From a virus, in IMG/VR virus record IMGVR_UViG_3300007555_000011, positions 1 to 45,104 of that record: a stretch of DNA of 45,104 nucleotides; one strand, written 5' to 3'. The number at the start of each line of letters is the position of its first letter. The stretch's first letter is position 1. The notes beneath the pieces are model-generated. The model had not been told where the DNA came from and did no database searches. It saw nothing but the letters and a program-made list of their open reading frames with translations. Made by a program: the position numbers and the translations under genes. Of this stretch, positions 21,845 through 42,132 are shown one piece after another.

Positions 21845-22288
21845 ATGGAATTTAAGGTTGGTAAGACATACAGTGTTTCCCCGATGTATAAAAAATGTTT
21901 TGTTGAGACTGAGACATTCGTCCACTGCGATGATCCTGAGCAAAAAATGATCGTGAGTATATTGTGGCGCAACGGAACAGTCAATGTTATCCCGCAAAAT
22001 GCGGATGAAGTTGATGCGTTGGAATCAGCACTATATGCTGAAGATGATGATGAGTTTGAGCCATATTCCTTTGAGGAATTTGAATTCGGTTCTACTTGGG
22101 ATGGGGTTTCAGTGGACATTGATTTTGTCGGCGGTGATCTTACTAAGGAACAGCAGGAAACTCTTGAAGAGGGCTATAATGATGAAGGGTTTTTCTTCCT
22201 TGAGGGAGAGGGTTATGATAGCGAGGAATCAAATGTTATTATGATTGGCGAACTTGAAATTACAGAAGTCGAGGCTATTGACGCTTAA
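21845..22288 (+). CDS. Unknown acidic protein, paralogue of the gene at 9736
   Basis: 147 residues. FKVGKTYSVSP and CFVETETF match the N-terminus of the gene at 9736; the C-terminal ESNVIMIGELEITEVEA matches its last strand. It lies directly before the polymerase gene and shares one base with it. Function unknown. Confidence 0.6.
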   Translation: MEFKVGKTYSVSPMYKKCFVETETFVHCDDPEQKMIVSILWRNGTVNVIPQNADEVDALESALYAEDDDEFEPYSFEEFEFGSTWDGVSVDIDFVGGDLTKEQQETLEEGYNDEGFFFLEGEGYDSEESNVIMIGELEITEVEAIDA

Positions 22289-23739
22289 TGTATTTCTATA
22301 CCCATGCCCATGTGAGAGGCAACAATGTCAACATCCGTGGCTATCAGGACGGCAGACGCTTTGTCCACAAAGTTGAGTACAACCCAAAGTTGTATGTGCC
22401 GTCACCCAACCCCACTAAGTGGACAACACTAGAGGGCGACTATGTAGACGAGGTTGCGCTTGGTGACATCCGCGAGGCTGCACAGTTTGTCCAGAAATAC
22501 GAGGGTGTTTCTAACTTCAAGACATATGGTTCCACTAAGTGGGCGCATGTCTGCATCAACGAGCGGTTCGGTAATGATTATGATACGGACACTATCCGTG
22601 TCGCCAACATTGATATTGAGGTTGCTTCTGAAGATGGCTTCCCGCTTCCTGAGTTAGCAAACCAAGAAGTGACTGCAATCACCGTCTCTTTGACGAGGAA
22701 CGGCAAGCGTCAATACTATGTTATGGGTGTTGGCGAGTATGATGACAGTGAGCGTGATGATGTGAAGTATGTTAATTGCATCAACGAGAAACGTTTGTTA
22801 TCTGCGTTTGTCGCTTTGTGGCAGAGACTCGATCCAGATATCGTAACTGGTTGGAACATTGAAGGGTTTGATATTCCATATCTTGTGAATCGTATTGGTA
22901 AGCTGTTTGATGATAAGTTTGTTAAGCGGCTCTCTCCATATGGCTGGATCAAAGAGCGTACCATCAAGAACTTTAATCGTGAAGATACGATCTATGAGCT
23001 GACTGGTATAGCCACGCTGGATTATCTCCAACTCTACAAAAAGTTTACATACTCGCAACAGGAGTCTTATCGACTTGATCACATTGCTTCTGTAGAGCTT
23101 GGTGAGCGCAAGATTGATTACTCCGAGTTTGATAACCTCAATCAACTACATAAGCAAGATTATAAAAAGTTTATTGATTATAATATCAAAGATGTTGAGA
23201 TTGTTGATAGGCTCGAAGATAAGATGAAGCTGATCGAGGGTGCTCTGGCTATTGCTTATGACGCCAAGGTAAACTACAATGATGTGTTCACTCAAGTAAC
23301 AATGTGGGATACGTTGATCCACAACTACTTGATGAGCAAGAATATTGTCATTCCTCCAAAGGAACAGACATTTAAGAACGAACAATTTGCAGGAGCTTAT
23401 GTTAAGGATCCGCAGGTTGGTATGCATAACTGGGTTATGAGTTTCGATTTGAACTCACTATATCCTCACTTGATCATGCAATACAACATCTCTCCCGAGA
23501 CGTTTGTTGAAGATGATTGGTTGACTGATGTGTCAATAGAGGATATAATTGATCGTAAGGTTGAGACCCATGAAGAGTATTCGATGGCTGGTAATGGTCG
23601 CTACTTCCGAAAGGATAAGCAGGGGTTTCTGCCTGAGATGATGGAAAAGATGTATAATGAGCGCAAAGGCTACAAGAAGAAAATGCTTGAAGCCGAAGCG
23701 GAACTTGAATTAGTAAACAAAAGGTTGTTACAATTATGA
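22288..23739 (+). CDS. 43A: DNA polymerase gp43, N-terminal part (exonuclease and palm motif A)
   Basis: A 483-residue family B polymerase fragment. Exonuclease motifs: D109 and E111 in DIEVASEDGF, D195 in IEGFDIPYLVNR, D302 in YNIKDVEIV. Polymerase motif A is D387 in SFDLNSLYPHLI. It ends in the first half of the fingers (YNERKGYKKKMLEAE), before motif B. The rest is in the gene at 24008. Together they give 850 residues, about the length of an intact marine gp43, so nothing seems to be lost. The stop overlaps the start of the inserted small gene. Confidence 0.93.
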   Translation: MYFYTHAHVRGNNVNIRGYQDGRRFVHKVEYNPKLYVPSPNPTKWTTLEGDYVDEVALGDIREAAQFVQKYEGVSNFKTYGSTKWAHVCINERFGNDYDTDTIRVANIDIEVASEDGFPLPELANQEVTAITVSLTRNGKRQYYVMGVGEYDDSERDDVKYVNCINEKRLLSAFVALWQRLDPDIVTGWNIEGFDIPYLVNRIGKLFDDKFVKRLSPYGWIKERTIKNFNREDTIYELTGIATLDYLQLYKKFTYSQQESYRLDHIASVELGERKIDYSEFDNLNQLHKQDYKKFIDYNIKDVEIVDRLEDKMKLIEGALAIAYDAKVNYNDVFTQVTMWDTLIHNYLMSKNIVIPPKEQTFKNEQFAGAYVKDPQVGMHNWVMSFDLNSLYPHLIMQYNISPETFVEDDWLTDVSIEDIIDRKVETHEEYSMAGNGRYFRKDKQGFLPEMMEKMYNERKGYKKKMLEAEAELELVNKRLLQL

Positions 23740-24008
23740 AGAAAGGTGATGTAGTATCTCTAGTAACTTTGACTGGAGAGTTTGTGGGTAAGTATGAAGA
23801 TCGAAGCCCAACAGGTGTTAAGATCAAAGACCCACGCATGTTAATCCACGGTGAGCAAGGTATGGGATTTGCCCATGGTGTCTGCGCTACTGGTCAGAAA
23901 GACGTGAAAGAAGTTGAATTCTTCAGCGGTGGTGTGGTGTTCATGACTCCAAGTAATGCTGATATTGAGAAAGCGTATCTTAGCGCCACAAGTGGAATTA
24001 TCCTTTAA
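23736..24008 (+). CDS. LSm-like small protein inside the polymerase split
   Basis: 90 residues, beta-rich. GDVVSLVTLTGEFVGKYEDR is like an Sm fold, followed by KDPRMLIHGEQGMGFAHGV and ADIEKAYLSATSGIIL. The same pattern is known to me from marine T4-like phages as an uncharacterised small protein. It overlaps the upstream stop by 4 bp and the downstream start by 1 bp, so it is coupled to both polymerase halves. It has no nuclease motif. Confidence 0.65.
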   Translation: MKKGDVVSLVTLTGEFVGKYEDRSPTGVKIKDPRMLIHGEQGMGFAHGVCATGQKDVKEVEFFSGGVVFMTPSNADIEKAYLSATSGIIL

Positions 24009-25111
24009 TGATCGATACTATGAGTAAGGCTGATCTCCTTGATCGAAAGAAGCAACTTGTCAAAGATATAAGTAAGTACAAGAACCTGCAGCTTGCGAAA
24101 AAGGTTCAGCTGAACTCAGCGTATGGTGCAGTTGGTAATAAATACTTCCGCTTCTTCGATGTGAGGAAAGCGGAAGCTATTACGCTGTCAGGGCAACTAT
24201 CCATTAAATGGATCGAAAGGAGAGTTAATGAGTATCTCAACACTATCTTGGATACAAGCGAAGTTGACTATGTTATTGCATCGGACACAGATTCAATTTA
24301 TGTCAATCTCGATGCACTTGTACGCAAATGCTTTAAAGAGGGAAGTGACCCTGTCAAAGTTGTCAATTTCTTGGACAAGGTTGCAACTGAGAAGCTGGAA
24401 CCTTTTATTGATAAGAGTTATGAGGAACTGGCACAGCTAATGAATGCCCACTCGCAGAAGATGTTTATGAAGCGAGAGGCGATAGCTGATAAAGGTATCT
24501 GGACTGCCAAGAAGCGTTATATGCTCAATGTGTATGACAATGAGGGTGTTCGGTATGCCGAGCCAAAGCTGAAGATGATGGGTATCGAGACTGTTAAGTC
24601 TTCGACTCCAGCTGTTTGCCGTGATGCTCTGAAGAAAGCAATCAATATTATCATGAACAAAAGTGAGCAGGATGCCCAAGATTATATTGCTGAATTCCGC
24701 AAACAGTTCAACAACTTCTCTTTCGAGGAGATTGCGTTTCCGCGTGGAATATCTGATCTAAATAAATATGTCGTCGAGGGTACTAGTCTAACAATCCCTA
24801 AAGGGTGTCCGATCCATGTTCGCGGTGGGTTGGTGTATAACCATGCGTTGCGTGCTGAGAAACTCACCAAAAAGTATGAGCTGGTTAAGGATGGCGAGAA
24901 GATCAAATTTTGTTATCTCAAGATGCCTAATCCGATGCAGCAAAATGTATTTAGTGTGATGACTACACTGCCAAGCGAGTTTAACTTGGATTCCTACATA
25001 GACCGTGATACCCAGTTCCAGAAAGCGTTTCTAGATCCGCTGATTGCGATACTTGATTCTGTTAACTGGAGCACAGAAAAGAAGAGTTCATTAGAAAGTT
25101 TTTTTGGATAG
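24008..25111 (+). CDS. 43B: DNA polymerase gp43, C-terminal part (fingers, palm, thumb)
   Basis: A 367-residue fragment. Motif B lies at K31-G40 (KKVQLNSAYG) and motif C is DTD at 93-95 in ASDTDSIYV. The C-terminus SLESFFG resembles the clamp-binding tail of T4 gp43. Its first 30 residues form the second finger helix. With the gene at 22288 it should assemble into an active polymerase. The start at 24008 overlaps the LSm-like stop; an ATG four codons in is also possible. Confidence 0.93.
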   Translation: MIDTMSKADLLDRKKQLVKDISKYKNLQLAKKVQLNSAYGAVGNKYFRFFDVRKAEAITLSGQLSIKWIERRVNEYLNTILDTSEVDYVIASDTDSIYVNLDALVRKCFKEGSDPVKVVNFLDKVATEKLEPFIDKSYEELAQLMNAHSQKMFMKREAIADKGIWTAKKRYMLNVYDNEGVRYAEPKLKMMGIETVKSSTPAVCRDALKKAINIIMNKSEQDAQDYIAEFRKQFNNFSFEEIAFPRGISDLNKYVVEGTSLTIPKGCPIHVRGGLVYNHALRAEKLTKKYELVKDGEKIKFCYLKMPNPMQQNVFSVMTTLPSEFNLDSYIDRDTQFQKAFLDPLIAILDSVNWSTEKKSSLESFFG

Positions 25112-29291: not shown

Positions 29292-30623
29292 ATGTACAAG
29301 TTTAACGAATACCTTATCGAATCAACCAAACTTTGGTTAGGGTTTGAGCACCTACCAACAGCAATGAACCCTGAGCTGAAGAGATTCATTACTCGTCTTA
29401 AGAAACATGCTGACGACGATGTTATCTACATTGAACCAAAGTATGACTTCAAGAAAGCGAGCACACAGCTCGTCATCAAGGTTACAGACAAGCAGCTTAT
29501 CCCTAAACTTGCTGTGAACAAAGACTTGGTTGGTTATGGGTTTATTAAAAAGGGTGAAAAGTTTGTTTCCTCTAAGCTCGTTAATATCGCTCTTGTTCCA
29601 TCTGGTGGTATGCGTGGCAGTGGTCGTCTCCCCAAGAAAGGTGAGAAAGTAGCTAACCCATCAACTGCTGAGCAAGAGGCAGGAACGATTGCTTATTTTG
29701 AGACCGCATTTAAAGGTAAGAAGCTGACACTGAAGCAGGTGTCTGAAAAGGTTGGATTTGATTTCAGTCCAGAGTGGATGCATAACTTCGAGCAACAGTA
29801 CATCGCATTCTCCAAGAACTTCGGCAACTTCCCTAAACACAAGATATACTTAGACTCTGAAAAGAATGATTCTAATGTATTATTTAATCTAGCGAAACGA
29901 TTTGGTTTAAAAGACTTAAAAGATAACTGGAACCCTGCTGACATCTGGATTATGTCAATCAACAAAGCGCAGGTAATTAAGCAGACCAAAGACGTTACAT
30001 CACTACATGAATTCAATGCTTGGCTCGCTGATAAGTACGAGAGCAAAGAGATTCTTGGAGTATCGCTCAAGAAGATCTCAAAGAACAAGACAGCTAAAGT
30101 CGAAACTGTTTCTACATCTGACATACCAGATGTTGACTTGACACCAATGCGTGTCTTGTTTGACCCATTCCAAAAGAACTTCATCTTCGAGACCCAAGGC
30201 AATATAAGCAATTTCCAGTTGCGTGTTGGGTATAAAGCAGGTACAATCTCTAAGGTCGGAGATATCCGTGTGTATCTTGAGGGCAGACAAAAGGGTGCTG
30301 ATGTTCAATTGGGTTCTGTATCTGCGCAACTATTCCCTGAACTGGCTGCTCAGAATGGATTTGATCTAAAGTCTGATAAGACTAAGATTATGAACAATCC
30401 TATGAAATACCTAAATACAACGTTGCCTAAACTATTGAAGAAGTCATTTGTAATTGATAAGGTTTCCCCTTTCCCGACATCTGAAGTGCAATTGAAGGCT
30501 GGTGCTTGGTTAACATACTATCTCGAGATCCTAGCAGAAAGCGATCCAGATATACTGAAGAGTTGTTATTACTCGGCTATAAAGAAAAACGACTTTTCGT
30601 CAATACACTGTAAGGTTTATTAA
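29292..30623 (+). CDS. Probable capsid-packaged protein with targeting peptide
   Basis: 443 residues, no domain recognised. It begins MYKFNEYLIES, which aligns residue by residue with the T4 internal-protein capsid-targeting peptide pattern: aromatic at 4, Glu at 6, aromatic at 7, aliphatic at 8, Glu at 10. A prohead protease cut after Glu10 would fit. The body is basic in parts, with PSGGMRGSGRLPKKGEK around residue 100. AAAGG precedes the ATG. The packaged role is inference. Confidence 0.6.
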   Translation: MYKFNEYLIESTKLWLGFEHLPTAMNPELKRFITRLKKHADDDVIYIEPKYDFKKASTQLVIKVTDKQLIPKLAVNKDLVGYGFIKKGEKFVSSKLVNIALVPSGGMRGSGRLPKKGEKVANPSTAEQEAGTIAYFETAFKGKKLTLKQVSEKVGFDFSPEWMHNFEQQYIAFSKNFGNFPKHKIYLDSEKNDSNVLFNLAKRFGLKDLKDNWNPADIWIMSINKAQVIKQTKDVTSLHEFNAWLADKYESKEILGVSLKKISKNKTAKVETVSTSDIPDVDLTPMRVLFDPFQKNFIFETQGNISNFQLRVGYKAGTISKVGDIRVYLEGRQKGADVQLGSVSAQLFPELAAQNGFDLKSDKTKIMNNPMKYLNTTLPKLLKKSFVIDKVSPFPTSEVQLKAGAWLTYYLEILAESDPDILKSCYYSAIKKNDFSSIHCKVY

Positions 30624-30626
30624 TAG

Positions 30627-30938
30627 ATGAAATCTTTTATACAGTTTAATGAGTCAGCAAGTATCAAATGGAAGAAAGTTCCAGATGGATATGGTGCAGG
30701 CAACAAGAAAGTATTCAAACACGTTTCCCCAGATGGTAAGTATGAGATCCGTCTATCTGGTATGGATTCTATGAGAAAGAACAAAGATGGTAGTCAGAAA
30801 GTAATGCCTACATTGTTCGATAATACTAAAGTAGGAGGCGATAAGCCTCGGCATCCAGTTACGGCATATAAAAATGTTGGCGTGGCTAAGAAAGAAGCCC
30901 AGCGATGGCACGATGAGCACTATAATGAAAAAATTTAA
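30627..30938 (+). CDS. Small basic protein with targeting-like N-terminus
   Basis: 103 residues. It begins MKSFIQFNES, a shortened form of the same N-terminal pattern. The rest has KVFKHVSPDGKYEIRLSG and KKEAQRWHDEHY, a domain seen as small phage proteins. It overlaps the next gene by 14 bp. Confidence 0.55.
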   Translation: MKSFIQFNESASIKWKKVPDGYGAGNKKVFKHVSPDGKYEIRLSGMDSMRKNKDGSQKVMPTLFDNTKVGGDKPRHPVTAYKNVGVAKKEAQRWHDEHYNEKI

Positions 30939-32148
30939 TTCATTCTTAATTGAACAAAAAAATACACATATGACGCATCTTGAGGATGCTGTACTTTATG
31001 GGGGTGTGAAAGGTGCAAGACAAGCTATCAATCTTCTACGCAGCATGCGTGATATGCTTTCGGGTAGTTCTTCTCGTGGTGTTTCTACTACTGTTAAGTG
31101 GGATGGCGCTCCTGCTATTTTTGCTGGACAAGATCCTCGTGACGGCAAGTTCTTTGTGGCAAAAAAGGGAGTCTTTAATAAAAACCCTAAAATCTACAAG
31201 AGCGCTGAAGAGGTAGATGAAGACACTAGCGGTGACTTGGCAGTTAAACTGAAGCTCGCTCTGAAACATTTACCCGACCTTGGAATCACTGGTGTGTTAC
31301 AGGGTGACTTTCTATTCAGTAAAAGCGATTTAAAGAACGAAACAATAGACGGTGAAAAGGTTACAACATTCCACCCAAACACAATTGTATACTCTGTTCC
31401 TAGTAAATCAGAAATGGGTAATGCAATCCGATCAGCTAAGATTGGTATTGTTTGGCATACTGTATACAGTGGCTCGTCATTTGAGACAATGAAAGCATCA
31501 TTCGGTCAGAAGATATCTGAAAAGCTAAGACCATCTAAAGACGTTTGGTATGTTGACCCTGAGTTCACAGATGTATCTGGTAAAGCTACATTCACAGACA
31601 AAGAAAATAAAGCAGTAACCAAGTATATTAGTGATGCAGGCAAGGTGTTTAGCAAACTAGATTCCAAGACTATGAATGCGATCTCCGAGAACCCAGAGTT
31701 GATTCGTCAGATTACAGTACACTTCAACACTAAGGTAAGAGCAGGACAAAAGGTTACAAACGTTAAGTCTCATGTGAAGGATCTTGTCAACCACATTACT
31801 GGCTTCTATGCTAAGGAAGCTGATAAGCGCAAGACACCAAAGGGTAAGAAAGTCCAGACCGATAGGCGTGACGAGATACTAAAGTTCTTTTCTAATGCTA
31901 ATGTTAAGAACCTTGAAAATATCTTCTTGCTGATGAATGCGCTAATCGATGCTAAAGAAATGATTATAAATAAAATGGATCAGGCAAGTAACATTGATAC
32001 ATTACTCAGAACCAAAGATGGATTCCAAGTAACTGCTCCAGAAGGTTATGTTGCTATCGACAATGATGGCAGTGCGCTGAAGCTAGTGAATAGAATGCAG
32101 TTCAGTCATGCTAACTTCTCTGACAACTACATTAAAGGTTGGAGTTAA
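30925..32148 (+). CDS. Ligase-like protein with capsid-targeting-type N-terminus (DUF6267-like)
   Basis: 407 residues. MKKFNSFLIEQ matches the targeting pattern, with Glu at 10. The body has KWDGAP at 58-63, like motif I (KxDG) of covalent nucleotidyltransferases such as DNA/RNA ligases. GVLQGDFLFS around 123-132 could be a later ligase motif, and IGIVWHTVY at 173-181 follows. The protein resembles the uncharacterised DUF6267 group of marine T4-like phages. Start at 30925; an upstream in-frame ATG at 30874 lies within the previous gene. Ligase activity is not established. Confidence 0.6.
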   Translation: MKKFNSFLIEQKNTHMTHLEDAVLYGGVKGARQAINLLRSMRDMLSGSSSRGVSTTVKWDGAPAIFAGQDPRDGKFFVAKKGVFNKNPKIYKSAEEVDEDTSGDLAVKLKLALKHLPDLGITGVLQGDFLFSKSDLKNETIDGEKVTTFHPNTIVYSVPSKSEMGNAIRSAKIGIVWHTVYSGSSFETMKASFGQKISEKLRPSKDVWYVDPEFTDVSGKATFTDKENKAVTKYISDAGKVFSKLDSKTMNAISENPELIRQITVHFNTKVRAGQKVTNVKSHVKDLVNHITGFYAKEADKRKTPKGKKVQTDRRDEILKFFSNANVKNLENIFLLMNALIDAKEMIINKMDQASNIDTLLRTKDGFQVTAPEGYVAIDNDGSALKLVNRMQFSHANFSDNYIKGWS

Positions 32149-32251: not shown

Positions 32252-34390
32252 ATGTCGAAAGTAGTATTCACATTCGGAAGGATGAATCCGCCAACTATCG
32301 GTCACCAAAAGCTGGTTGACAAGGTTGAGGCGATTGCTAAGAAAGAAAAAGCGCCCGCAAGGATTTATCTTTCCCATACCCAGAATAATAAGAAAGATCC
32401 TCTCAACTACGCTGAGAAGATTAGTTTCGCCCGCAAAGCATTCGGTAAAACAGCATTCCAATCAAAGTCTAAGACAATCTTCCAGATAATGGCTGAATTG
32501 GATAAAGAGTTTGATGAAGTCATCATGGTTGTTGGATCTGATCGAGTTACCGAATTCAATGGTCTGCTCCAGAAGTATAATGGTAAGAACTACGACTTCG
32601 ACTCAATCAAAGTAGTCTCTGCTGGCGCACGTGATCCTGACGCAACTGGCGTTGAAGGAATGTCTGCATCTAAGCTAAGAGCAATTGCAGTTGAGGGCGA
32701 CTTCGATACATTCAAGTCTGGTCTAGCAAAGAAATTAAGTGATCGTGATGCTAAAGATATCTATGACACTATCCGCTCTGTACTTACAGAAGACATGGAC
32801 GAAGATAGAAAGCCATTAAGTATCTCTCAGCGTAAAGCTATTGGTCGTAGAATGAAGCGTCTTGCTCCAAAGATGCAGCGTCTTAAGAAGATCAAAGCCA
32901 AGAAGATGGCTAACACTGATGTGATTAAGAAGCGTGCCAACAAGGCTGCTATCGCTGTTATCCGCAAGAAAGTTGCGGGTGATCGTGGTAAGAACTATGC
33001 TAGTCTAGCGCCTACAGATAAGATCCAAGTCGACAAGCTAGTACAGAAGAAGTCATCACTCATTCCTAAAATTGCCAAGAAGCTATTACCTAAAATCCGT
33101 AAAGCTGAGATCGAAAGATTGAAGAAAGCTCGTGGCGGTGTCAAGGAAGAGTTAGATTATGATGCGTTGTTTGAAGCTGTTGCTCAAGACAAAGACATCA
33201 AAGACCGCGAAGGAACACAGCCAAAGAAATATCATAGTGGATTGTCTAAGTCTACCAAAGCAAAGCGTGACGCAGAATTCAAGAAAGGCGCTGAGAAAGA
33301 TTCAGACGACCCGACAGCATATCCAGATAAGCATGCTGGCGATACTGGCGCTAAGACTAAACTCTCCAAACACACTAAGAAGTATCGTGATATGTTTGGT
33401 GAGGGTGAAGTTGACTCTGCTAAAGAAAAGATAGACAGAGAAAAGGCTTCTGATAAGAAAAAACATGACCGTATGTTGGATCGTGCCCGCACTTCAGACA
33501 CTAAAGCTAAGAACCAAGAAGAATCTTTTGAGATCACCGAAGACTCAGCCACTGCGCTAAAGAAAAAGTCTGAGAAGTCTGGCATATCTCTTGGTATCCT
33601 GAAGAAAGTTTATAATCGTGGTATGGCTGCGTGGAAGACTGGACATCGTCCAGGAGCAAACCAACAGCAATGGGCATATGCTCGTGTAAACTCTTTCATT
33701 ACTGGTGGTAAGACAAGAACTACTGGCGATGCTGACTTGTGGAAACAACACAAGGGTAATGTGAGCGAGTCTGTTGAGATGTTGGACGAGGTTCCTACGG
33801 GACAGCTGATCGCCAAGCTGAAGTCTAAGACTATCTCAAAGAATAAGTATCAAGCCGCATTGAGTGTTCTGAAGCAGGTTGTAGACCGCAAGAAGAAAGA
33901 AGCTGGTAAAGACCCCATGAAGCACGGTGTTGTTTATTATGCTGGTGTTGTGGCGCGACAATATAATGGTGTTAATCCGCGTGTTCTTGCGAATATGTAT
34001 ACAGACCTTAAAGAAGCTGCTGGTGAGTTTGGTACTGATGCACTGACCAAGAAGTATAAGAAAGACACTCCGTGTCAAGAAGATTGCGCTGGCATGTATG
34101 AAGATTTAGTGGTTGAAGCTGCTGAGTATAAAGGAAGAAAGGTTGAGTTGAACAATCCTTTCAGACTACCGTCAGGATCGAAAAAGAAATTTGGCGTGTA
34201 TGTTAAGAATGACAAAGGTAATGTGATTAAGGTTACGTTTGGTGATCCAAATATGGAAATCAAACGAGACGACCCGAAACGTAGAGCAGCATTCAGATCA
34301 AGACACGATTGCGAAAACAAAAAAGACAAAACAACAGCTGGGTATTGGTCATGTTACCAATGGCGTGCTGGCGAAAAAGTTGATAACTAA
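32252..34390 (+). CDS. Multidomain protein: nucleotidyltransferase plus head-type domains
   Basis: 712 residues. Residues 1-170 are a nucleotidyltransferase domain: FGRMNPPTIGH with the T/HxGH motif ending at H18, and GMSASKLR near 140. A Lys/Arg-rich helical stretch follows (190-300). Residues about 435-500 resemble DUF5824 (SGISLGILKKVYNRGMAAWK), and the last 85 resemble DUF5872 (TFGDPNMEIKRDDPKRR). L/I-x-E sites precede several segments: LTE180, LFE308, ITE430, LDE513, LKE588. This layout suggests processing by the prohead protease. Substrate of the enzyme domain unknown. Confidence 0.65.
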   Translation: MSKVVFTFGRMNPPTIGHQKLVDKVEAIAKKEKAPARIYLSHTQNNKKDPLNYAEKISFARKAFGKTAFQSKSKTIFQIMAELDKEFDEVIMVVGSDRVTEFNGLLQKYNGKNYDFDSIKVVSAGARDPDATGVEGMSASKLRAIAVEGDFDTFKSGLAKKLSDRDAKDIYDTIRSVLTEDMDEDRKPLSISQRKAIGRRMKRLAPKMQRLKKIKAKKMANTDVIKKRANKAAIAVIRKKVAGDRGKNYASLAPTDKIQVDKLVQKKSSLIPKIAKKLLPKIRKAEIERLKKARGGVKEELDYDALFEAVAQDKDIKDREGTQPKKYHSGLSKSTKAKRDAEFKKGAEKDSDDPTAYPDKHAGDTGAKTKLSKHTKKYRDMFGEGEVDSAKEKIDREKASDKKKHDRMLDRARTSDTKAKNQEESFEITEDSATALKKKSEKSGISLGILKKVYNRGMAAWKTGHRPGANQQQWAYARVNSFITGGKTRTTGDADLWKQHKGNVSESVEMLDEVPTGQLIAKLKSKTISKNKYQAALSVLKQVVDRKKKEAGKDPMKHGVVYYAGVVARQYNGVNPRVLANMYTDLKEAAGEFGTDALTKKYKKDTPCQEDCAGMYEDLVVEAAEYKGRKVELNNPFRLPSGSKKKFGVYVKNDKGNVIKVTFGDPNMEIKRDDPKRRAAFRSRHDCENKKDKTTAGYWSCYQWRAGEKVDN

Positions 34391-34402: not shown

Positions 34403-37195
34403 ATGAACCTAGCGAACACAATAAAAGTAATGCAGCTCAGACAGCTTCAGGAAGCAGAAGAAGCTGCTAAGTATCCGCACGATATGTATGATCCAGAAAC
34501 TGGCGAGAAAGAAGTTGCTAATAGCGAAGCAGAGCACAAAGCCCTTGCTGCTAAAGGCTACACTCACGAGAAGCCTGAAGATGATCTTAATGAATCATTC
34601 GAAGAAGCAATGGTCGATCTTGAAGAAGCAAGGATCAAAGCGTCTGACTATGAAGCTACTTCTGAGAAATCAAAGTTTGGCGGACATAGAGCTAAGGTCG
34701 TACATAAGACTAAGGGGCATACGATGTGGCTAGGTGCTGCGGGATTTAAGACACCTAAAGCTGCTAAAGCTGCTGCTGATGCGTATCTTTCAGGATATGC
34801 AATAGGTAGTGAGAAAGGTGCTCAGAGAATGCTGGATGCACATATTAGGAATAACAAAAAGAATTTAGTTGATCCTAGTGTTTTAGATGAAGCTGTTGCT
34901 CTTTCTGAAGAGATTCGATTTAAAGCTGGTGATATGCCTAATAGCGATCTACTCAATGCCATAGAAAAATTGAAAGGTCTAAAAGCAAAGGCTGAGGGCG
35001 AAAAGAAAAAGTTCAGTGATCCCACTTTAATCGATTCAGTTGAACAACTGATCATTGGGTTAGAAATGGGAGTTAAGGCTGGCGAAAAGGCAGAAAAACA
35101 GGCATCTAAATTTATCGCACAAGCTGCTTCTGTTATGAATAAAGCATTTGCTCTTGCAAAAAGAAAGCAGCATTTGTTGAACTCTTTTGAAGCAGAAGGT
35201 GATCAACTTGACGAAGCCTTTAATATTGAAAAAGGCACTAATGTTAAAATGAAAGCTGGTAGTGATAAAGATCTATATGGTACAGTGATCAAACAAGTTA
35301 AAGTGAACGGTAAGCCTGCAGTAACAGTTCAATGGAAAAATGGTGTAAAGGGTAATTTTAGAATGGACCAATTTGCAGCTGTAAGTATGGATAGAAAAGC
35401 AGACTATCAAGTTAAAGATGACGGTGTTCGTTTTGAACAGAAAGAGTCTGTTGAACTTGACGAAGCATACCAACAGTTCACAGATAAGACTCCTAATTGG
35501 GGTGAAGATCAAGCAATAACATTCGGTCGTAAGAAAGGTTATAAAGAAGTTGCTGTAATGAGCGATAACAATAGTAAACACCCAATGGTACTATTTGCTC
35601 TAGATTCTGGTGATAAGAATTACATCAAAGGTTCTAATGTAAAGTCTGGTGAAACTGTATTCAGATATGCCACAAAGATTAGCATTGCTGGTGACATCTT
35701 TCCACTTGTGAAAGTTAATATCGCCAAAGGAATCTACTATAATCTAACTCAAGAGTCTTCAGAGGGTACTATTGAAGATGCTAAGTTCGAGAATAAAGGC
35801 GTTAAGCTAAAGTTCTTCCGTTCTCTTGAAGGCGCGATCAAAGAGTCTGTTGAATTAGATGAAGCTAAATTTGGCGATAACGATCTTGTTCATATTGCTA
35901 AAGCAAATGTGCGTGGAAATAATAATCCAAAGACTGATAAAATTGTTGGCTATAGTAAAGCACCTAAAAATCCAAACAAGTTTCCTGATCCAAAATCGGG
36001 CGCAAACTCTATAATGCGTATCGCTGATGCGAAGAAAAAAGGATTTAAGATCGAAAGTGCAGAACTCAATGAAGATTACTTCATAGTTCAATACTACGAT
36101 AAGAAAGGTAAAGCCGACACAACTAAGTTCTCTAAGTTTGATGATGCATCAAAAGCTAAGAAGTATCTTGATCGTGCAAATAAAACAAGCAAAGAGGGTG
36201 AATATAAGATGTTAAAAGTTAAAGGTGCAATGGAAGGTCTTGAAGAAGCAAACGTCTTCGGAACGCAAGACAATTATGGTTCTAGTGACTCATTGCTTGC
36301 TGCTGTAAACGCTGTTGTTTCTGGACAAGCTGAAACTGTTGAAACAACAGTTGAAGATCAGAACGAAATCATCGAGAATGGCTCAGATGAAATTGTTGAG
36401 TCGGCTGATCTTGAAGAAGCATTCGCTAGTTTTTCTGTACCAATCCCTGCGCAAACACTAAGCGGTAAGAAGATTGGTGGTGGTAAAACTCCTATTGTCG
36501 TGAAAGCTAGAACAGCAAGAGAAGCAATCCAAAAAGCTGCTAAGCAATTAGGTGTTGATTTCAAAATGCTGAAGACTGGCAAGGTGATGAAAGAAGATAA
36601 CACTAATGACGACTCTGATGACGGTGAAGGTCTTGATAAAGTCCAACCTAAAGCTGTGAAGAAGAAGTTTAAGGATCGTAAAGACCAAGACATCGACAAC
36701 GATGGTGATGTAGACGATTCAGACAAGTTCTTACACAAGAAGCGCAAGGCAATTTCTAAGGCTATTTCTAAAGATGAGTCTAAAGAAGAAGATAAGAAAG
36801 ATGTTAAGTCTGGTAAGAAAGAAAAGGTTGACATTAAACCTAAACTAGATGAAGCTGCCTTCAAGAGCAAGTATGGCTCGCGTTGGGAAGCTGTAATGGA
36901 AGCAACTATCAAACGTTTGGTAGAGCAACAAGAGCTTAATGAAAAGTTCACATTACTGAAAGATAAAGATATCGCTCCATTAGTATTGGCATTAAAGGAT
37001 AACATCTCTGTAGAGTTGAAAGATCCTAAAAATAACAACTTGCTTGTTACAATGCAGACAACTGATGATGGTGTTCAGGTTAAGTATAAGACAGGTCGCA
37101 ATACCAAAGTCGGTACTGAGAGAAGTCCTATGCCTGCCATTAGGAGCGCAGTTAAGTTCTTGAAAGCTAAAGAGTTGGCGTTCAGAGAACTATAA
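34403..37195 (+). CDS. Giant multi-segment protein, possible prohead-protease polyprotein
   Basis: 930 residues. Eleven L-x-E sites, nine followed by Ala, divide it into pieces of 30-145 residues. They end at E17, E75, E163, E271, E354, E487, E557, E615, E672, E817 and E847. Typical forms are ELDEA, DLEEA and KLDEA. T4 gp21 cuts after (L/I)-x-E, often before Ala or Gly. Pieces include an SH3/KOW-like segment (about 272-350), an acidic calcium-loop-like D-x-D-x-DG at 763-772 followed by a basic helix, and coiled-coil regions. It has no known enzyme motif. The polyprotein idea is inference. Confidence 0.6.
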   Translation: MNLANTIKVMQLRQLQEAEEAAKYPHDMYDPETGEKEVANSEAEHKALAAKGYTHEKPEDDLNESFEEAMVDLEEARIKASDYEATSEKSKFGGHRAKVVHKTKGHTMWLGAAGFKTPKAAKAAADAYLSGYAIGSEKGAQRMLDAHIRNNKKNLVDPSVLDEAVALSEEIRFKAGDMPNSDLLNAIEKLKGLKAKAEGEKKKFSDPTLIDSVEQLIIGLEMGVKAGEKAEKQASKFIAQAASVMNKAFALAKRKQHLLNSFEAEGDQLDEAFNIEKGTNVKMKAGSDKDLYGTVIKQVKVNGKPAVTVQWKNGVKGNFRMDQFAAVSMDRKADYQVKDDGVRFEQKESVELDEAYQQFTDKTPNWGEDQAITFGRKKGYKEVAVMSDNNSKHPMVLFALDSGDKNYIKGSNVKSGETVFRYATKISIAGDIFPLVKVNIAKGIYYNLTQESSEGTIEDAKFENKGVKLKFFRSLEGAIKESVELDEAKFGDNDLVHIAKANVRGNNNPKTDKIVGYSKAPKNPNKFPDPKSGANSIMRIADAKKKGFKIESAELNEDYFIVQYYDKKGKADTTKFSKFDDASKAKKYLDRANKTSKEGEYKMLKVKGAMEGLEEANVFGTQDNYGSSDSLLAAVNAVVSGQAETVETTVEDQNEIIENGSDEIVESADLEEAFASFSVPIPAQTLSGKKIGGGKTPIVVKARTAREAIQKAAKQLGVDFKMLKTGKVMKEDNTNDDSDDGEGLDKVQPKAVKKKFKDRKDQDIDNDGDVDDSDKFLHKKRKAISKAISKDESKEEDKKDVKSGKKEKVDIKPKLDEAAFKSKYGSRWEAVMEATIKRLVEQQELNEKFTLLKDKDIAPLVLALKDNISVELKDPKNNNLLVTMQTTDDGVQVKYKTGRNTKVGTERSPMPAIRSAVKFLKAKELAFREL

Positions 37196-38119: not shown

Positions 38120-38506
38120 ATGTTTGACGATTTGACGGAAGATAACTTCCAAATGTTCGCTATGAAGTCATATACGAATCCCCACTGTACGGATTTGTTA
38201 GAGTTTTATGACGACCTGAAGAGGATACGCTACATTAAAAGATTGTTCAGAAAGTATGAGCAATCAGGAGATCTTAAAGAAAGGTTGATCATCAATCATA
38301 TGGTTGTAATTTATAACATGTTTGAGAGTAGAGCTGCTACCAGAATGTTATTCTTGAAGCTGGAAGGGTATCTACATTACCTGAAGCCATTCTTGCTCAT
38401 GATGAATTACTACCCGACTGAACTTGGTTTGGTTGCAGGTAAAAGAATCATAGATAGTGAGATTGGGTTAGACGCACACATAGTAGAAACGCTTAGGAAG
38501 ATTTAA
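38120..38506 (+). CDS. Conserved T4-like phage protein, unknown
   Basis: 128 residues, helical, rich in Leu, Tyr and Met; contains LLEFYDDLKRIRYIKRLFRK and VVIYNMFESRAATRML. The pattern occurs in marine T4-like phages near virion genes. It shares one base with the next gene. No function known. Confidence 0.55.
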   Translation: MFDDLTEDNFQMFAMKSYTNPHCTDLLEFYDDLKRIRYIKRLFRKYEQSGDLKERLIINHMVVIYNMFESRAATRMLFLKLEGYLHYLKPFLLMMNYYPTELGLVAGKRIIDSEIGLDAHIVETLRKI

Positions 38507-39063
38507 TGGGCAAGATTACAGATTTACTCCTCGCGTACCAGTTCATCAAAAGGCTTACAACACCTTTTGAAAAGACTGATGCATTTAAGTTGGGGATTAT
38601 AGACAAGAGCGGCAAGAAGATAAAGTCGCCTGAGACTACTGAAGAGAATAATGCTTATGGGTATTATGATCGGATGGTCTTCAATCTCAAAAAACTGCTT
38701 GAGAAAATTCCAGGAGGCAAAACTAAGTTTGCTTCCTATGCTGCTGCTTTGTTTCTCATTAAAGAAAGCCACACACAAACTGAATTCTCCGAAGAAGAAA
38801 TGGTACAAGGGTTATACGAAGCTATGGATAAGATAGAAGAAAGCACAACAGAGCAAAAGGACTTCAATACACTATTCGAAGATGTTGCTGCCAATGCTAC
38901 TGGTGCAGCTGTTGCTGGTACTGGTAATGATGTTGCTGACTTTAAAAAGCCAGACGCTCGCAAGAAAGACATGAAAGCGTTTTTGAAACGTTATCTTGAA
39001 CAGAAACAAAAGCGTGTTAAGATTAAAGAACGCAAAGACTTCATGAAGAAATTTGGACTATGA
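38506..39063 (+). CDS. Conserved T4-like phage protein, unknown
   Basis: 185 residues. FIKRLTTPFEKTDAFKLGII and NLKKLLEKIPGGKTKFAS form a conserved helical N-terminal part. An LFED site precedes ANATGAAVAGTG, and the C-terminus is strongly basic. The L-x-E site again fits possible prohead processing. It overlaps the next gene by 4 bp. Confidence 0.55.
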   Translation: MGKITDLLLAYQFIKRLTTPFEKTDAFKLGIIDKSGKKIKSPETTEENNAYGYYDRMVFNLKKLLEKIPGGKTKFASYAAALFLIKESHTQTEFSEEEMVQGLYEAMDKIEESTTEQKDFNTLFEDVAANATGAAVAGTGNDVADFKKPDARKKDMKAFLKRYLEQKQKRVKIKERKDFMKKFGL

Positions 39064-39929
39064 TAACTCAATCTGATTTAGATGCCGTTGAAAAATATGC
39101 CGATAGAATCTTCGCTAAAGTGGGGATTGATGTTGAGTTCACTCGACATTTTCTAGATCGTGCCAATGATGCTCGCAATAAAAAGGATATCAGTTCAGCC
39201 GAACTAATACGTCTATTCAAGAAAACATTTAAGAAACACGGCAAAGCTATACCAAAACTTGGTCCAGACGCTGAAGCTGTATTGAAAGATATGCGAACGG
39301 ACATCAACGTGCCGTTCGTACTGAACCTACGAAGAGGAGAGTTAGAGTTGGTGGCTAAGACAGTAATGCGTAAAAAGAATTTCAAGACCCCTGATCCTGA
39401 GTTGGCTGTTGAGATGGCAAAGAATAACACTCCCGCTAAAGCTGGAAAGGACTTCAAGAAACTGTTCGAGACTAAAGCTCCAGTTCGAGGCACTCGCCCA
39501 ACATCAGTATTGGCCAAGACTAGAGAAACATTAAATAAAGTCAATGAATTAAAATTCACTATACCGAATAAAGGCGATATTCCTCGCAACAAGATGCCTC
39601 AGATCGAATCTGAAGATTACAAAGCCTATCTCCAGCATATGAAAAGAAAGGGTATAGTTGGAAAGGAAATCAAAGTTGACCCGAAGAAGCTAAAGGCAAT
39701 ACAATCAGAGTTCTCTGACAAGGGTGTTGTTATTTCCATCAGGAAGAATGACGACAAACCTATCCTCATCAGCAACGATAAATATGTGATTGATGGTAAT
39801 CATCGATGGTTGGCTGCTATAGCTACACGAAAAGATGCGATTAATGCGATACAATTTAACGCAAGCAAAGATCAAGTGTTAAGGGCAACACTAGCATTCC
39901 CTAAAGTGGTATTTAAACAGCACGGATAA
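39060..39929 (+). CDS. Two-domain protein with ParB/sulfiredoxin-like C-terminus
   Basis: 289 residues. The N-terminal 130 (VEFTRHFLDRANDARNKKDI, then KKHGKAIPKLG) match a domain in marine T4-like phages. The C-terminal domain has VIDGNHRWLAAIA, the signature of ParB/sulfiredoxin-like folds, which can bind nucleotides or act as nucleases. Whether it is active is unknown. Confidence 0.6.
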   Translation: MITQSDLDAVEKYADRIFAKVGIDVEFTRHFLDRANDARNKKDISSAELIRLFKKTFKKHGKAIPKLGPDAEAVLKDMRTDINVPFVLNLRRGELELVAKTVMRKKNFKTPDPELAVEMAKNNTPAKAGKDFKKLFETKAPVRGTRPTSVLAKTRETLNKVNELKFTIPNKGDIPRNKMPQIESEDYKAYLQHMKRKGIVGKEIKVDPKKLKAIQSEFSDKGVVISIRKNDDKPILISNDKYVIDGNHRWLAAIATRKDAINAIQFNASKDQVLRATLAFPKVVFKQHG

Positions 39930-39932
39930 ATT

Positions 39933-40310
39933 ATGATTAAATTGTATGCATGTATCGCATTGATAGTGATACTTGGTGGTGTTGGTTATGCCGCTAAGAG
40001 CTACTACAATGACACTCAGGATCGTATTCAACAGCTCGCAGAGAACAACGCGACATTGAAAGCTGCGGCTGAAGAGCAGCAAGCCACAATAAACACTATG
40101 CAAGAAACTGCAGAAGTACAAGCCGCTCTGACCAAAGACCTAATGAAAAACCTTCAGAAAGCAGAAGCATACTCGGATGGATTGCTGAAGAAATTTAAGA
40201 AACACAACCTGACGTTGTTGAGTTTGAGAAAACCTGGATTAATTGAAAAGAGAATAAATGATGGTACAGTTAAGATATTTGCTGATCTCGAGTCTGATAC
40301 TGCTAAGTAG
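39933..40310 (+). CDS. Inner-membrane spanin-like protein
   Basis: 125 residues. N-terminal membrane anchor (LYACIALIVILGGVGYAA), then a long coiled coil facing the periplasm (about residues 25-85), and LRKPGLIEKRIND. The layout and the overlapping lipoprotein gene match Rz/Rz1-type i-spanins, which fuse inner and outer membranes at lysis. Confidence 0.75.
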   Translation: MIKLYACIALIVILGGVGYAAKSYYNDTQDRIQQLAENNATLKAAAEEQQATINTMQETAEVQAALTKDLMKNLQKAEAYSDGLLKKFKKHNLTLLSLRKPGLIEKRINDGTVKIFADLESDTAK

Positions 40311-40641
40311 TGGTTGCAGTTTTTTAAACAGACAACCAGAACCAGAGATCATCACAGTAACAAAGATTGTTAAGCCAATAATCCCTATTGCGGAACGACC
40401 GAAGCAATTAGACCTATCGGACGTTGATTGGTATGTTGTTACTGAAAGAAACATGGAAGAGTTTCTTGAAAAGTTTGAGAAAGATAATGGTGACATAGTA
40501 TTCATGGCAATATCTGTTAGAGGCTATGAGAACATCAGCTTAAACCTTGCTGATCTAAGACGCTATATACTACAACAGAAAGAAATTATTATTTACTATG
40601 AAGATTCGGTAAAGCCAAAAGAGGAAGAACCGACACAATAA
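40258..40641 (+). CDS. Outer-membrane spanin-like lipoprotein
   Basis: 127 residues. A signal sequence ends in the lipobox LSSGC, with the lipidated Cys at residue 20. A short Pro-rich stretch follows (NRQPEPE). Its start is embedded in the i-spanin gene in another frame with a 53-bp overlap, the classic arrangement. It is longer than most o-spanins. The second ATG (40261) may be the start. Confidence 0.75.
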   Translation: MMVQLRYLLISSLILLSSGCSFLNRQPEPEIITVTKIVKPIIPIAERPKQLDLSDVDWYVVTERNMEEFLEKFEKDNGDIVFMAISVRGYENISLNLADLRRYILQQKEIIIYYEDSVKPKEEEPTQ

Positions 40642-40657
40642 CATTGAGAATTATATT

Positions 40658-41383
40658 ATGATACCAAAGATTTTATTGCAAGTTTCGAGAGAGCCTTTCC
40701 TTGATGAAGTTAATGCTGGATGGGCTGAACGAAATGGTTGTGGATGGAAGATAGACTGGTATGACGACGAAAGAATACTGGAGTATTTTGACGAAAATCC
40801 ACTACCAGAATTCCCGAACATAGTAGATGTTTTTAATAGTTTCACAGGTGCGCATAAATCTGACCTGTTTAGATACTATTACTTGTATTTGAATGGTGGC
40901 GTCTTTTGCGACTCTGATCTAATGCTAACAGGGGATTTATCTGAGCTGGATATAGATGGACACGATCATCTATTCACTGTGTGTGACTTGGATATGAATG
41001 TGAATGCTGAAGTTTCTCTTAATGGAGAGAACTTTCTTCTAGGTACGACAGTATTTAACGGGTTTATAGGTGCGAAGCCAAATAGTGAAATCATTTATGA
41101 TGCTTTGGTGAATGCTTATACTACGACACCCGAAACATTGGATCAACATTATCTCTATTTTTGTCAAGAGATGTATCATATTATGGTCAAACATAAAGAC
41201 AAATATGATATTAAGTTGTTTGAAGAGTATATGATCGGAGGAATCGATAATGTTTCTCACGTTATAGAGAGTGGTGTTGATGGTGCCCAAAACGTTATCG
41301 CAGTACACTTCTTTGAAGAAGATAAATATATACCATTCGATTACATTGAATATATAAAGAACATAAAAATAAATAAAGGATAA
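40658..41383 (+). CDS. Glycosyltransferase with DXD motif (GT32-like)
   Basis: 241 residues. IPKILLQVSREPFLDE at the start, then KSDLFRYYYLYLNGGVFCDS with DxD at D85-D87, and HFFEE near the end. The same family as the gene at 10161 but distantly related. It sits between spanins and lipase, unlike the glycosyltransferases in the replication region. Acceptor unknown. Confidence 0.8.
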   Translation: MIPKILLQVSREPFLDEVNAGWAERNGCGWKIDWYDDERILEYFDENPLPEFPNIVDVFNSFTGAHKSDLFRYYYLYLNGGVFCDSDLMLTGDLSELDIDGHDHLFTVCDLDMNVNAEVSLNGENFLLGTTVFNGFIGAKPNSEIIYDALVNAYTTTPETLDQHYLYFCQEMYHIMVKHKDKYDIKLFEEYMIGGIDNVSHVIESGVDGAQNVIAVHFFEEDKYIPFDYIEYIKNIKINKG

Positions 41384-41391
41384 CTAAGTAG

Positions 41392-42132
41392 ATGACCAAT
41401 AAAACAGAAGCTGCAGCGTATCTTGCGCAGTCAGCATACCTTGACGCAGAAGCATTGAAGAGTCTCGACGGCTACAAGGGCAAGTTGATTGACAGAAATG
41501 GTGCACAGGTATTGGTCGCTAAGAGTAAAAAAGAATTGTGGTTTGCGTTTCGGGGTACTGAACCAACAAAGCTGAATGACATAGCTGCGGATCTGAAAGT
41601 GACAAAGAATTCCGCTCTTGCTGGAGGTAAGGTACACTCAGGGTTTCAGGATGAACTCGATGAATTATGGGCTGATTGCTTAAAAGAGATAGAAGCAAAC
41701 AGTAAGTTAAAAACACCCAGAACAATCTATCTCACTGGTCATAGTCTCGGTGCTGCAATGGCAACAATCGCTGCGACACGTATTGAAGCTGAGTGTTTGT
41801 TTACTTTCGGTTCACCACGTGTTGGCGGTAAGCGATTTGTTCAAGAGCTTAAATGTCCACATCAACGATTTGTTAATAACAATGACATAGTAACAAAAGT
41901 TCCACCACAAATACTCGGCTATGTGCATTGCGGCGAAGAGCGTTACTTCAATGCTTATGGTTGTGAGCGCAACCCAACATACTGGCAGAGATGGAAAGAC
42001 TTCTTCCGTGGTACGTGGTCTGGATGGAAGCAAGGTAAGTTCTTTGATGCGCTTACTGATCATGGCATGCAGAACTATGTTGTTTTGTCTGTTGAAGCCT
42101 CGTTGAACGACATTGAAAAGGTTGACAAATAA
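41392..42132 (+). CDS. Class 3 lipase-like alpha/beta hydrolase
   Basis: 246 residues. The oxyanion-type strand WFAFRGTEP, the nucleophile elbow GHSLG with S118, FGSPRVGGKRF, D165 in NNNDIVTKVPP and H224 in TDHGMQNYV give a complete Ser-Asp-His set of the fungal-lipase (class 3) family. No signal peptide, so release across the membrane would need a holin or lysis. Next to the spanins it may attack host lipids late in infection. A virion role is an alternative. Confidence 0.8.
   Translation: MTNKTEAAAYLAQSAYLDAEALKSLDGYKGKLIDRNGAQVLVAKSKKELWFAFRGTEPTKLNDIAADLKVTKNSALAGGKVHSGFQDELDELWADCLKEIEANSKLKTPRTIYLTGHSLGAAMATIAATRIEAECLFTFGSPRVGGKRFVQELKCPHQRFVNNNDIVTKVPPQILGYVHCGEERYFNAYGCERNPTYWQRWKDFFRGTWSGWKQGKFFDALTDHGMQNYVVLSVEASLNDIEKVDK

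Follow-up and report, generated by a model that had tools for sequence, protein, structure and literature searches.

The window, by which we mean the whole stretch of DNA that was analysed, comprises positions 1 to 45,104 (45,104 nt) of IMG/VR virus record IMGVR_UViG_3300007555_000011, and in it an ORF at 34403-37195 (+) encodes the 930-aa modular protein that is the subject of this report (Table 1). The UvsX protein of the window is nearest to those of T4-like cyanophages (59% to S-CAM8), and the gene order gp43 - uvsX - 2OG oxygenase - gp41 - ... - DUF6267 - NMNAT-like - modular proteins is that of the Melnitz phage, with cyanophages P-SSM4, S-ShM2 and S-SM1 showing the same order except for the position of mazG. 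The gp43 family B DNA polymerase is split in the window into ORFs 22288-23739 and 24008-25111, which abut in the Pfam profile (the one running to 145, the other from 148) and have between them, within 22288-25111, a 90-aa ORF of Sm-like appearance. The 930-aa protein sits among genes of packaged type, since three ORFs with starts resembling a capsid-targeting (CTS) leader lie upstream together with an NMNAT-like protein that has virion homologues. Modularity extends to that NMNAT-like protein, in which NMNAT, DUF5824 and phrog_7595 are fused at the joints MLDE|V, LKE|A and VVE|A, and it is possibly a second polyprotein. On the other side, a ParB-like domain is joined to a 'VEKYADRIFAKVGIDVEF' module (39060-39929), a relative of which follows a CTS leader and a joint resembling L-x-E (DINE|) in another contig (L013); two overlapping small ORFs (39933-40641) resemble an inner-membrane and lipoprotein spanin pair, the second beginning ..LLSSGCSF..; and a DXD glycosyltransferase is followed by a class 3 lipase (40658-42132).

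Table 1. Coordinates, in the window, of the candidate polyprotein, its segments (S0 to S12) and its neighbours.
Feature	Position	Strand	Remarks
443-aa protein, CTS-like start MYKFNEYLIE	29292..30623	+	
103-aa protein, CTS-like start MKSFIQFNE	30627..30938	+	
DUF6267 protein, CTS-like start MKKFNSFLIE	30916..32148	+	
NMNAT/cytidylyltransferase-like protein	32252..34390	+	Cyanophage homologues are virion proteins
Whole modular (candidate) polyprotein, 930 aa	34403..37195	+	Used for motif counts, segment searches and genome ranking
S0, leader, aa 1-17, MNLANTIKVMQLRQLQE, putatively capsid-targeting, ends in L-x-E	34403..34453	+	
S1, aa 18-75, 'YPHDMYDPETG..GYTHEKP' module	34454..34627	+	In more than 503 viral contigs
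S2, aa 76-163	34628..34891	+	Elsewhere directly behind CTS leaders, e.g. MKKFKSLRE; tandem pair in L073
S3, aa 164-271, helical 'FKAGDMPNSD' module, after minor linker AVALSE	34892..35215	+	
S4, aa 272-354	35216..35464	+	L008 and L130 have it, the L004 relative does not
DNA repeat D1, reference copy (AAAGAGTCTGTTGAACTTGACGAAGC)	35441..35466	+	Codes KESVELDEA; possible recombination site
S5, aa 355-487	35465..35863	+	
S6, aa 488-557	35864..36073	+	Adjoins S9 in a separate CTS-led ORF of L081
S7, aa 558-615, compact beta-beta-alpha-beta module	36074..36247	+	pLDDT about 90
S8, aa 616-672, acidic, low-confidence	36248..36418	+	
S9, aa 673-731	36419..36595	+	Near the N-terminus in the L004 relative
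S10, aa 732-817, DIDNDGDVD module (phrog_22379)	36596..36853	+	Moves among several proteins
S11, aa 818-847, short helix	36854..36943	+	
S12, aa 848-930, C-terminal alpha/beta module and stop	36944..37195	+	
185-aa protein	38506..39063	+	Second in the window, third in the relative for [LI]xE[AS] excess; further predicted protease substrate

Strict L-x-E motifs occur 14 times in the 930-aa protein, nine of them as L-x-E-A, with three further I-x-E motifs. Shuffling the residues of the protein gave expectations of 5.1 +/- 2.1 for L-x-E (p 2e-4), 0.53 for L-x-E-A (p < 5e-5) and 0.12 for L[DEN]EA, which was observed eight times, while the control motifs L-x-D, L-x-K, L-x-x-E and E-x-L displayed no excess in the same shuffles of this protein. 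A sequence-only reading of the locus had counted about eleven L-x-E sites, which held in part, and nine sites followed by Ala, which held exactly; its segment lengths of 30-145 residues compare with the 17-133 aa given by the main sites. V-M-E and L-V-E within S11 probably do not mark cut sites of their own. As a test, bare counts of [LIM]xE were rejected, being only mildly raised in acidic proteins (z 1.9 for the relative's copy), and we therefore relied on tests that keep composition and on tests of breakpoints. When all ORFs of >= 100 aa were ranked by their excess of [LI]xE[AS], in the window as well as in a 133 kb contig that is its closest long relative, the polyprotein came first in the window (12 versus 1.4 expected) and its homologue first in the relative (11 versus 1.7), followed there by the gp22 scaffold homologue (6 versus 1.7), the homologue of ORF 38506 (3 versus 0.3) and the gp21-homologous protease itself (3 versus 0.4). 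This unbiased scan returned gp22 beside the polyprotein because gp22 is a known gp21 substrate, and the motif excess itself is established. At the DNA level, the strongest direct repeats within the gene coincide with the stretches encoding the cut sites, from which we tentatively infer that such repeats could help recombination.

Searches of viral contigs, for which the complete protein as well as individual modules served as queries, retrieved two identical copies (L001, L002), three close relatives (L003, L004, L008) and many partial matches. When the protein was cut at its main sites and the segments were searched singly, relatives were matched almost end to end with the order changed: S0 to S12 run consecutively in the window, the order in L004/L035 is S0 S1 S9 (new) S3 S5 S6 S7 S8 S10 (new) S11 S12, that in L008/L038 is S1 (new) S3 (new) S4 S7 (new) S8 S10 S11, and L130 carries a leader followed by S2 (new) S3 (new) S4. 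S6 and S9 stand in a separate CTS-led ORF in L081, and L073 has a leader followed by S2 S2, such that segments are reordered, moved to other ORFs or missing in relatives, with S0 remaining N-terminal (MNLANTIKSMYE, MNLINTIKNLHNINE). No relative was found in GTDB genomes, and tblastn of single modules against a phage collection returned Melnitz phages only, at E 0.1. In the polyprotein of one relative (L133, 3167-5323), a whole segment of about 30 aa between L-x-E sites resembles a LuxR/GerE-like helix-turn-helix, as judged from a sub-threshold Pfam match.

The sequence-only reading had further predicted that, in an alignment of relatives, whole segments delimited by L-x-E would come and go as units; we put this to the test, and the prediction held strongly. 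With a homology breakpoint defined as an alignment end at which both proteins run on, 70 of 152 breakpoints from HSPs of >= 80% identity fell within 5 aa of [LIM]xE (19.9 expected), as did 35 of 55 in the four closest full-length proteins (10.2 expected) and, after homologous junctions had been collapsed into independent contexts, 77 of 203 (26.2 expected, p 2e-19). The ends of low-identity full-length HSPs were noisy, with a ratio of about 1.6-1.7, and sharper cut-offs raised the signal. At the 203 independent contexts L-x-D (15 versus 22.6) and L-x-K (40 versus 47.6) were below expectation, whereas E-x-L and L-x-x-E were also enriched in position, more weakly, because the junctions are acidic. 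Shuffling residues within each 16-aa window around 381 breakpoints preserved local composition, and in this test [LIM]xE was present in 163 breakpoint windows versus 83 in the shuffles (z 11.7) and [LIM]xE[AS] in 68 versus 13 (z 16.9); the off-register motifs [LIM]E, [LIM]xxE and E-x-[LIM] (z <= 0.8), as well as [LIM]xD, gave no signal once local composition was kept. Only the exact spacing is enriched, and it is therefore the spacing of the protease motif itself that marks the joints. Thus, we conclude that the modules move as units bounded by cut sites.

The gp21 protease of T4 recognizes L/I-x-E and cleaves after the E, and T4 internal proteins carry a capsid-targeting leader of 10-20 residues that ends in L/I-x-E (PMC9026906, PMC5694885). 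A search for an S77 protease in the 45 kb window found none, and as the window is a genome fragment without a protease gene, the protease of its phage is inferred from relatives. The two longest relatives and the Melnitz phage each carry an S77 protease that clears the Pfam cut-off by a wide margin and adjoins gp22 and gp23 in the T4 order; the 133 kb contig encodes this S77 (gp21-type) prohead protease, and the SLLGE|AA of its major capsid protein aligns onto the T4 gp23 cut SFLTE|AE. The presence of the protease and the use of its motif are thus shown for the phage group, which supports the identification of the L-x-E sites with the T4 gp21 consensus made by the sequence-only reading. In the leader of T4 IPIII, positions 4 and 7 are the main determinants of targeting, and positions 8 and 10 those of processing (PMC9026906), and the internal sites of the polyprotein retain just the processing part of the CTS. 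The leader of the 930-aa protein, which has L-x-E at its end, is retained among relatives; it differs from leaders of the MKTYQEFIAE type and resembles the T4 CTS only loosely. Leaders of the canonical type precede the same modules in other phages (S2; S6 with S9), so that the association of modules with CTS leaders is likewise shown.

Direct evidence for presence in virions exists for related and neighbouring proteins, and in cyanophages only. Cyanophage T4-GC190, which is homologous to the upstream NMNAT-like gene, was found in S-SM1 virions (PMC3037559), and NMNAT-like proteins are reported from the virions of several other cyanophages (PMC10665884). The published mass-spectrometry proteome of S-CREM2 virions (its Table 3) lists gp154, a cytidylyltransferase, and gp160, both of them syntenic; on inspection of the sequences gp154 starts with the CTS-like MKNFSSFLTE| and gp160 is modular and L-x-E-joined. 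The gp160 peptides cannot separate a cut from an uncut protein.

Another cyanophage module, SFCARM, occurs fused into L-x-E proteins where the phage bears S77, and as a standalone protein in other phages. Fused copies have GGL-N-E in 84 of 84 cases, whereas at the equivalent position the standalone copies have GGL-N-A in 37, N-Q in two and N-E in two, one of the latter having a CTS-like leader; two apparent exceptions in this comparison turned out to be wrong start codons. An S77 protease turned up in 10 of the 12 fused-class contigs that were tested, versus 0 of 21 for the standalone class. The contigs may be fragments, and kinship may reduce the E versus A pattern to a few evolutionary events; the contrast supports the cleavage reading without proving it. 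Standalone SFCARM, of about 83 aa, is present in pelagiphages and in a Prochlorococcus autographivirus (L139 2528-2779, L142 2426-2680), and in some phages (P-SCSP1b, HTVC103P) it lies near capsid genes.

An AlphaFold2 model of the 930-aa protein had a mean pLDDT of 56 and a pTM of 0.29, with about half of the residues at pLDDT < 50, and consisted of confident units at about 1-60, 178-240, 559-606, 675-716 and 856-929 joined by low-confidence stretches. This beads-on-a-string arrangement supports the notion, already put forward from sequence alone, that the segments are unrelated small domains. Most sites lie at unit edges or in low-confidence stretches, and those after residues 17, 64, 75, 163, 169, 841 and 847 lie in predicted helices. 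The outcome that would have refuted the sequence-only reading, sites buried within single folds, was not met in any confident part of the model, with the reservations that several sites are in helices and that half of the model is of low confidence. A better-covered relative (L083, residues 1-416) gave pLDDT 75 and pTM 0.31 and is predicted to be a set of folded units without a fixed arrangement; its sites at 25, 67, 70, 99 and 113 fall in low-confidence stretches, those at 244 and 249 in a dip, and that at 180 in a confident region. Fold searches with both models returned nothing significant, only weak KH-like hints. The polyprotein had zero matches to Pfam and PDB sequence families, and its matches in PHROGs were solely to families of unknown function.

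Three alternative explanations were weighed against cleavage of a packaged polyprotein. The protein might belong to the prohead core or scaffold, like gp22, gp67 and gp68, in which case cutting at L-x-E would mainly dismantle it, the fragments would leave and the segments would be functionless after assembly. In favor of this explanation, cutting at several L-x-E sites is likewise the fate of the T4 core proteins, most of whose fragments exit the head (PMC9026906), gp22 ranks second in cut-site excess, and the protein at the gp67 position has a stretch in common with the polyprotein family. We nevertheless consider it unlikely, as the relative has a separate gp22 homologue and a gene at the gp67 position, with the polyprotein about 50 kb from the gp20-gp23 block; the segments are diverse, often folded units of 30-133 aa with fast turnover and reordering, in contrast to the conserved core scaffold genes; and the modules are also found as single CTS-led proteins.

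The protein might instead be an uncut multidomain virion or injected protein in which L-x-E is merely a linker or a core-docking motif. No direct cleavage data exist for the 930-aa protein, and since the T4 CTS serves in targeting besides being cut, a targeting role could be what preserves L-x-E. Against this, the internal sites have kept the processing residues of the CTS (8 and 10) without the targeting residues (4 and 7) (PMC9026906), L/I-x-E is the exact motif kept at the cleavage position of the major capsid protein of the group, and the E is absent from most standalone SFCARM copies, which come from phages where no S77 protease was detected; we regard the uncut explanation as very improbable. 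A polyvalent protein in the sense of Iyer et al. (2017), whose effector domains are injected as one chain and freed by a built-in metallopeptidase, would have the same overall logic of many domains delivered on one chain with the DNA (PMC5512222). This possibility can be set aside almost entirely, given that the 930-aa protein contains neither an HExxH metallopeptidase motif nor a Pfam domain and that its junctions bear the motif of a separate head protease.

We therefore favor, with a probability of roughly 0.8, the interpretation that the 930-aa protein is a polyprotein of T4-style internal head proteins which is cut by a gp21-type protease and shuffled at its cut sites; cleavage, packaging and ejection are inferred. 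In the putative mechanism the N-terminal leader would carry the polyprotein into the prohead core, where the S77 prohead protease, homologous to T4 gp21, would cut C-terminal to the E of [L/I/M]-x-E, mostly at x-L-D/E/N-E|A. This would free about 12-13 small domains (30-133 aa) alongside maturation of the capsid protein, an inference that rests on the motif, the protease, synteny and the breakpoints. Most domains would remain in the head with the DNA and would probably enter the host on ejection, as small factors that act early, which is the least certain step. Because each junction is a cut site, recombination could insert, remove or rearrange domains while leaving their neighbours intact, and the repeated cut-site DNA may help. 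Prohead entry, cutting by S77 into about 12-13 pieces, retention and ejection all remain inferences in the absence of cleavage, virion or ejection data for the 930-aa protein, so that the packaged polyprotein releasing about a dozen peptides into the head, as proposed by the sequence-only reading, is supported with its cutting, number of products and retention still inferred. The fast turnover of modules recalls, by analogy, the restriction-inhibitor role of T4 IPI, no module function being known.

A bolder reading, which we hold with slightly more belief than disbelief, is that the heads of marine T4-like phages are loaded with a library of small effector domains that reshuffles rapidly and is made as protease-cut polyproteins, in which the cut-site DNA repeats serve as recombination joints and a new cargo needs no new targeting leader. 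If this is true, the head-maturation protease plays the role that viral proteases have in the polyproteins of eukaryotic viruses, and tailed phages possess a polyprotein strategy run by the head protease. It would account for a large group of 'hypothetical' proteins encoded by marine T4-like viruses, which are abundant, provide a source of small domains that possibly counter host defences, and predict mature peptides that virion proteomics could find directly. Existing cyanophage virion mass-spectrometry data would then lend themselves at once to re-analysis for semi-tryptic peptides that start after L-x-E. The arrangement had also been suggested to be possibly undescribed, and we found no contrary report: full-text searches covering polyproteins of phages, their prohead proteases and modular internal proteins, with subscription journals missing, turned up no description of it, which is weak evidence of novelty.

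Among known systems, polyvalent proteins likewise carry many unrelated domains per chain, with host entry alongside the DNA and splitting proposed (PMC5512222), but their splitting is assigned to an embedded zincin-like metallopeptidase, in place of which the 930-aa protein has sites for a trans-acting head protease. In the giant phages phiKZ and SPN3US (S/A-x-E, A-x-E), a large number of head and ejection proteins are processed after Glu by an S77-type prohead protease (PMC5694885), with the loss of long N-terminal propeptides; no multi-cargo polyprotein was found in the text consulted. The T4 core proteins gp22, gp67 and gp68 are likewise cut by gp21 into peptides but are scaffold, whereas the polyprotein segments are varied domains with high turnover. 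Cyanophage T4-GC190 (the cytidylyltransferase, in a syntenic block between gp41 and gp61) and T4-GC119 likewise consist of L-x-E-joined modules, with virion detection or annotation; they carry other sets of modules, and their annotation so far is solely that of single proteins, structural or hypothetical. Closest are T4 IPI, IPII, IPIII and Alt with gp21, which have in common with the polyprotein the L/I-x-E motif, the S77 protease family and the T4-like order of head genes, along with a short leader ending in L-x-E, only putatively capsid-targeting in the polyprotein, and a diverse, fast-evolving set of small proteins. T4 has one cargo per gene, whereas the polyprotein joins about twelve cargo domains with a site at every joint and is shuffled at those sites, and what is probably new relative to the CTS/gp21 biology of T4 is the placing of several internal-protein cargoes on one chain, inferred to be cut, in a tailed phage.
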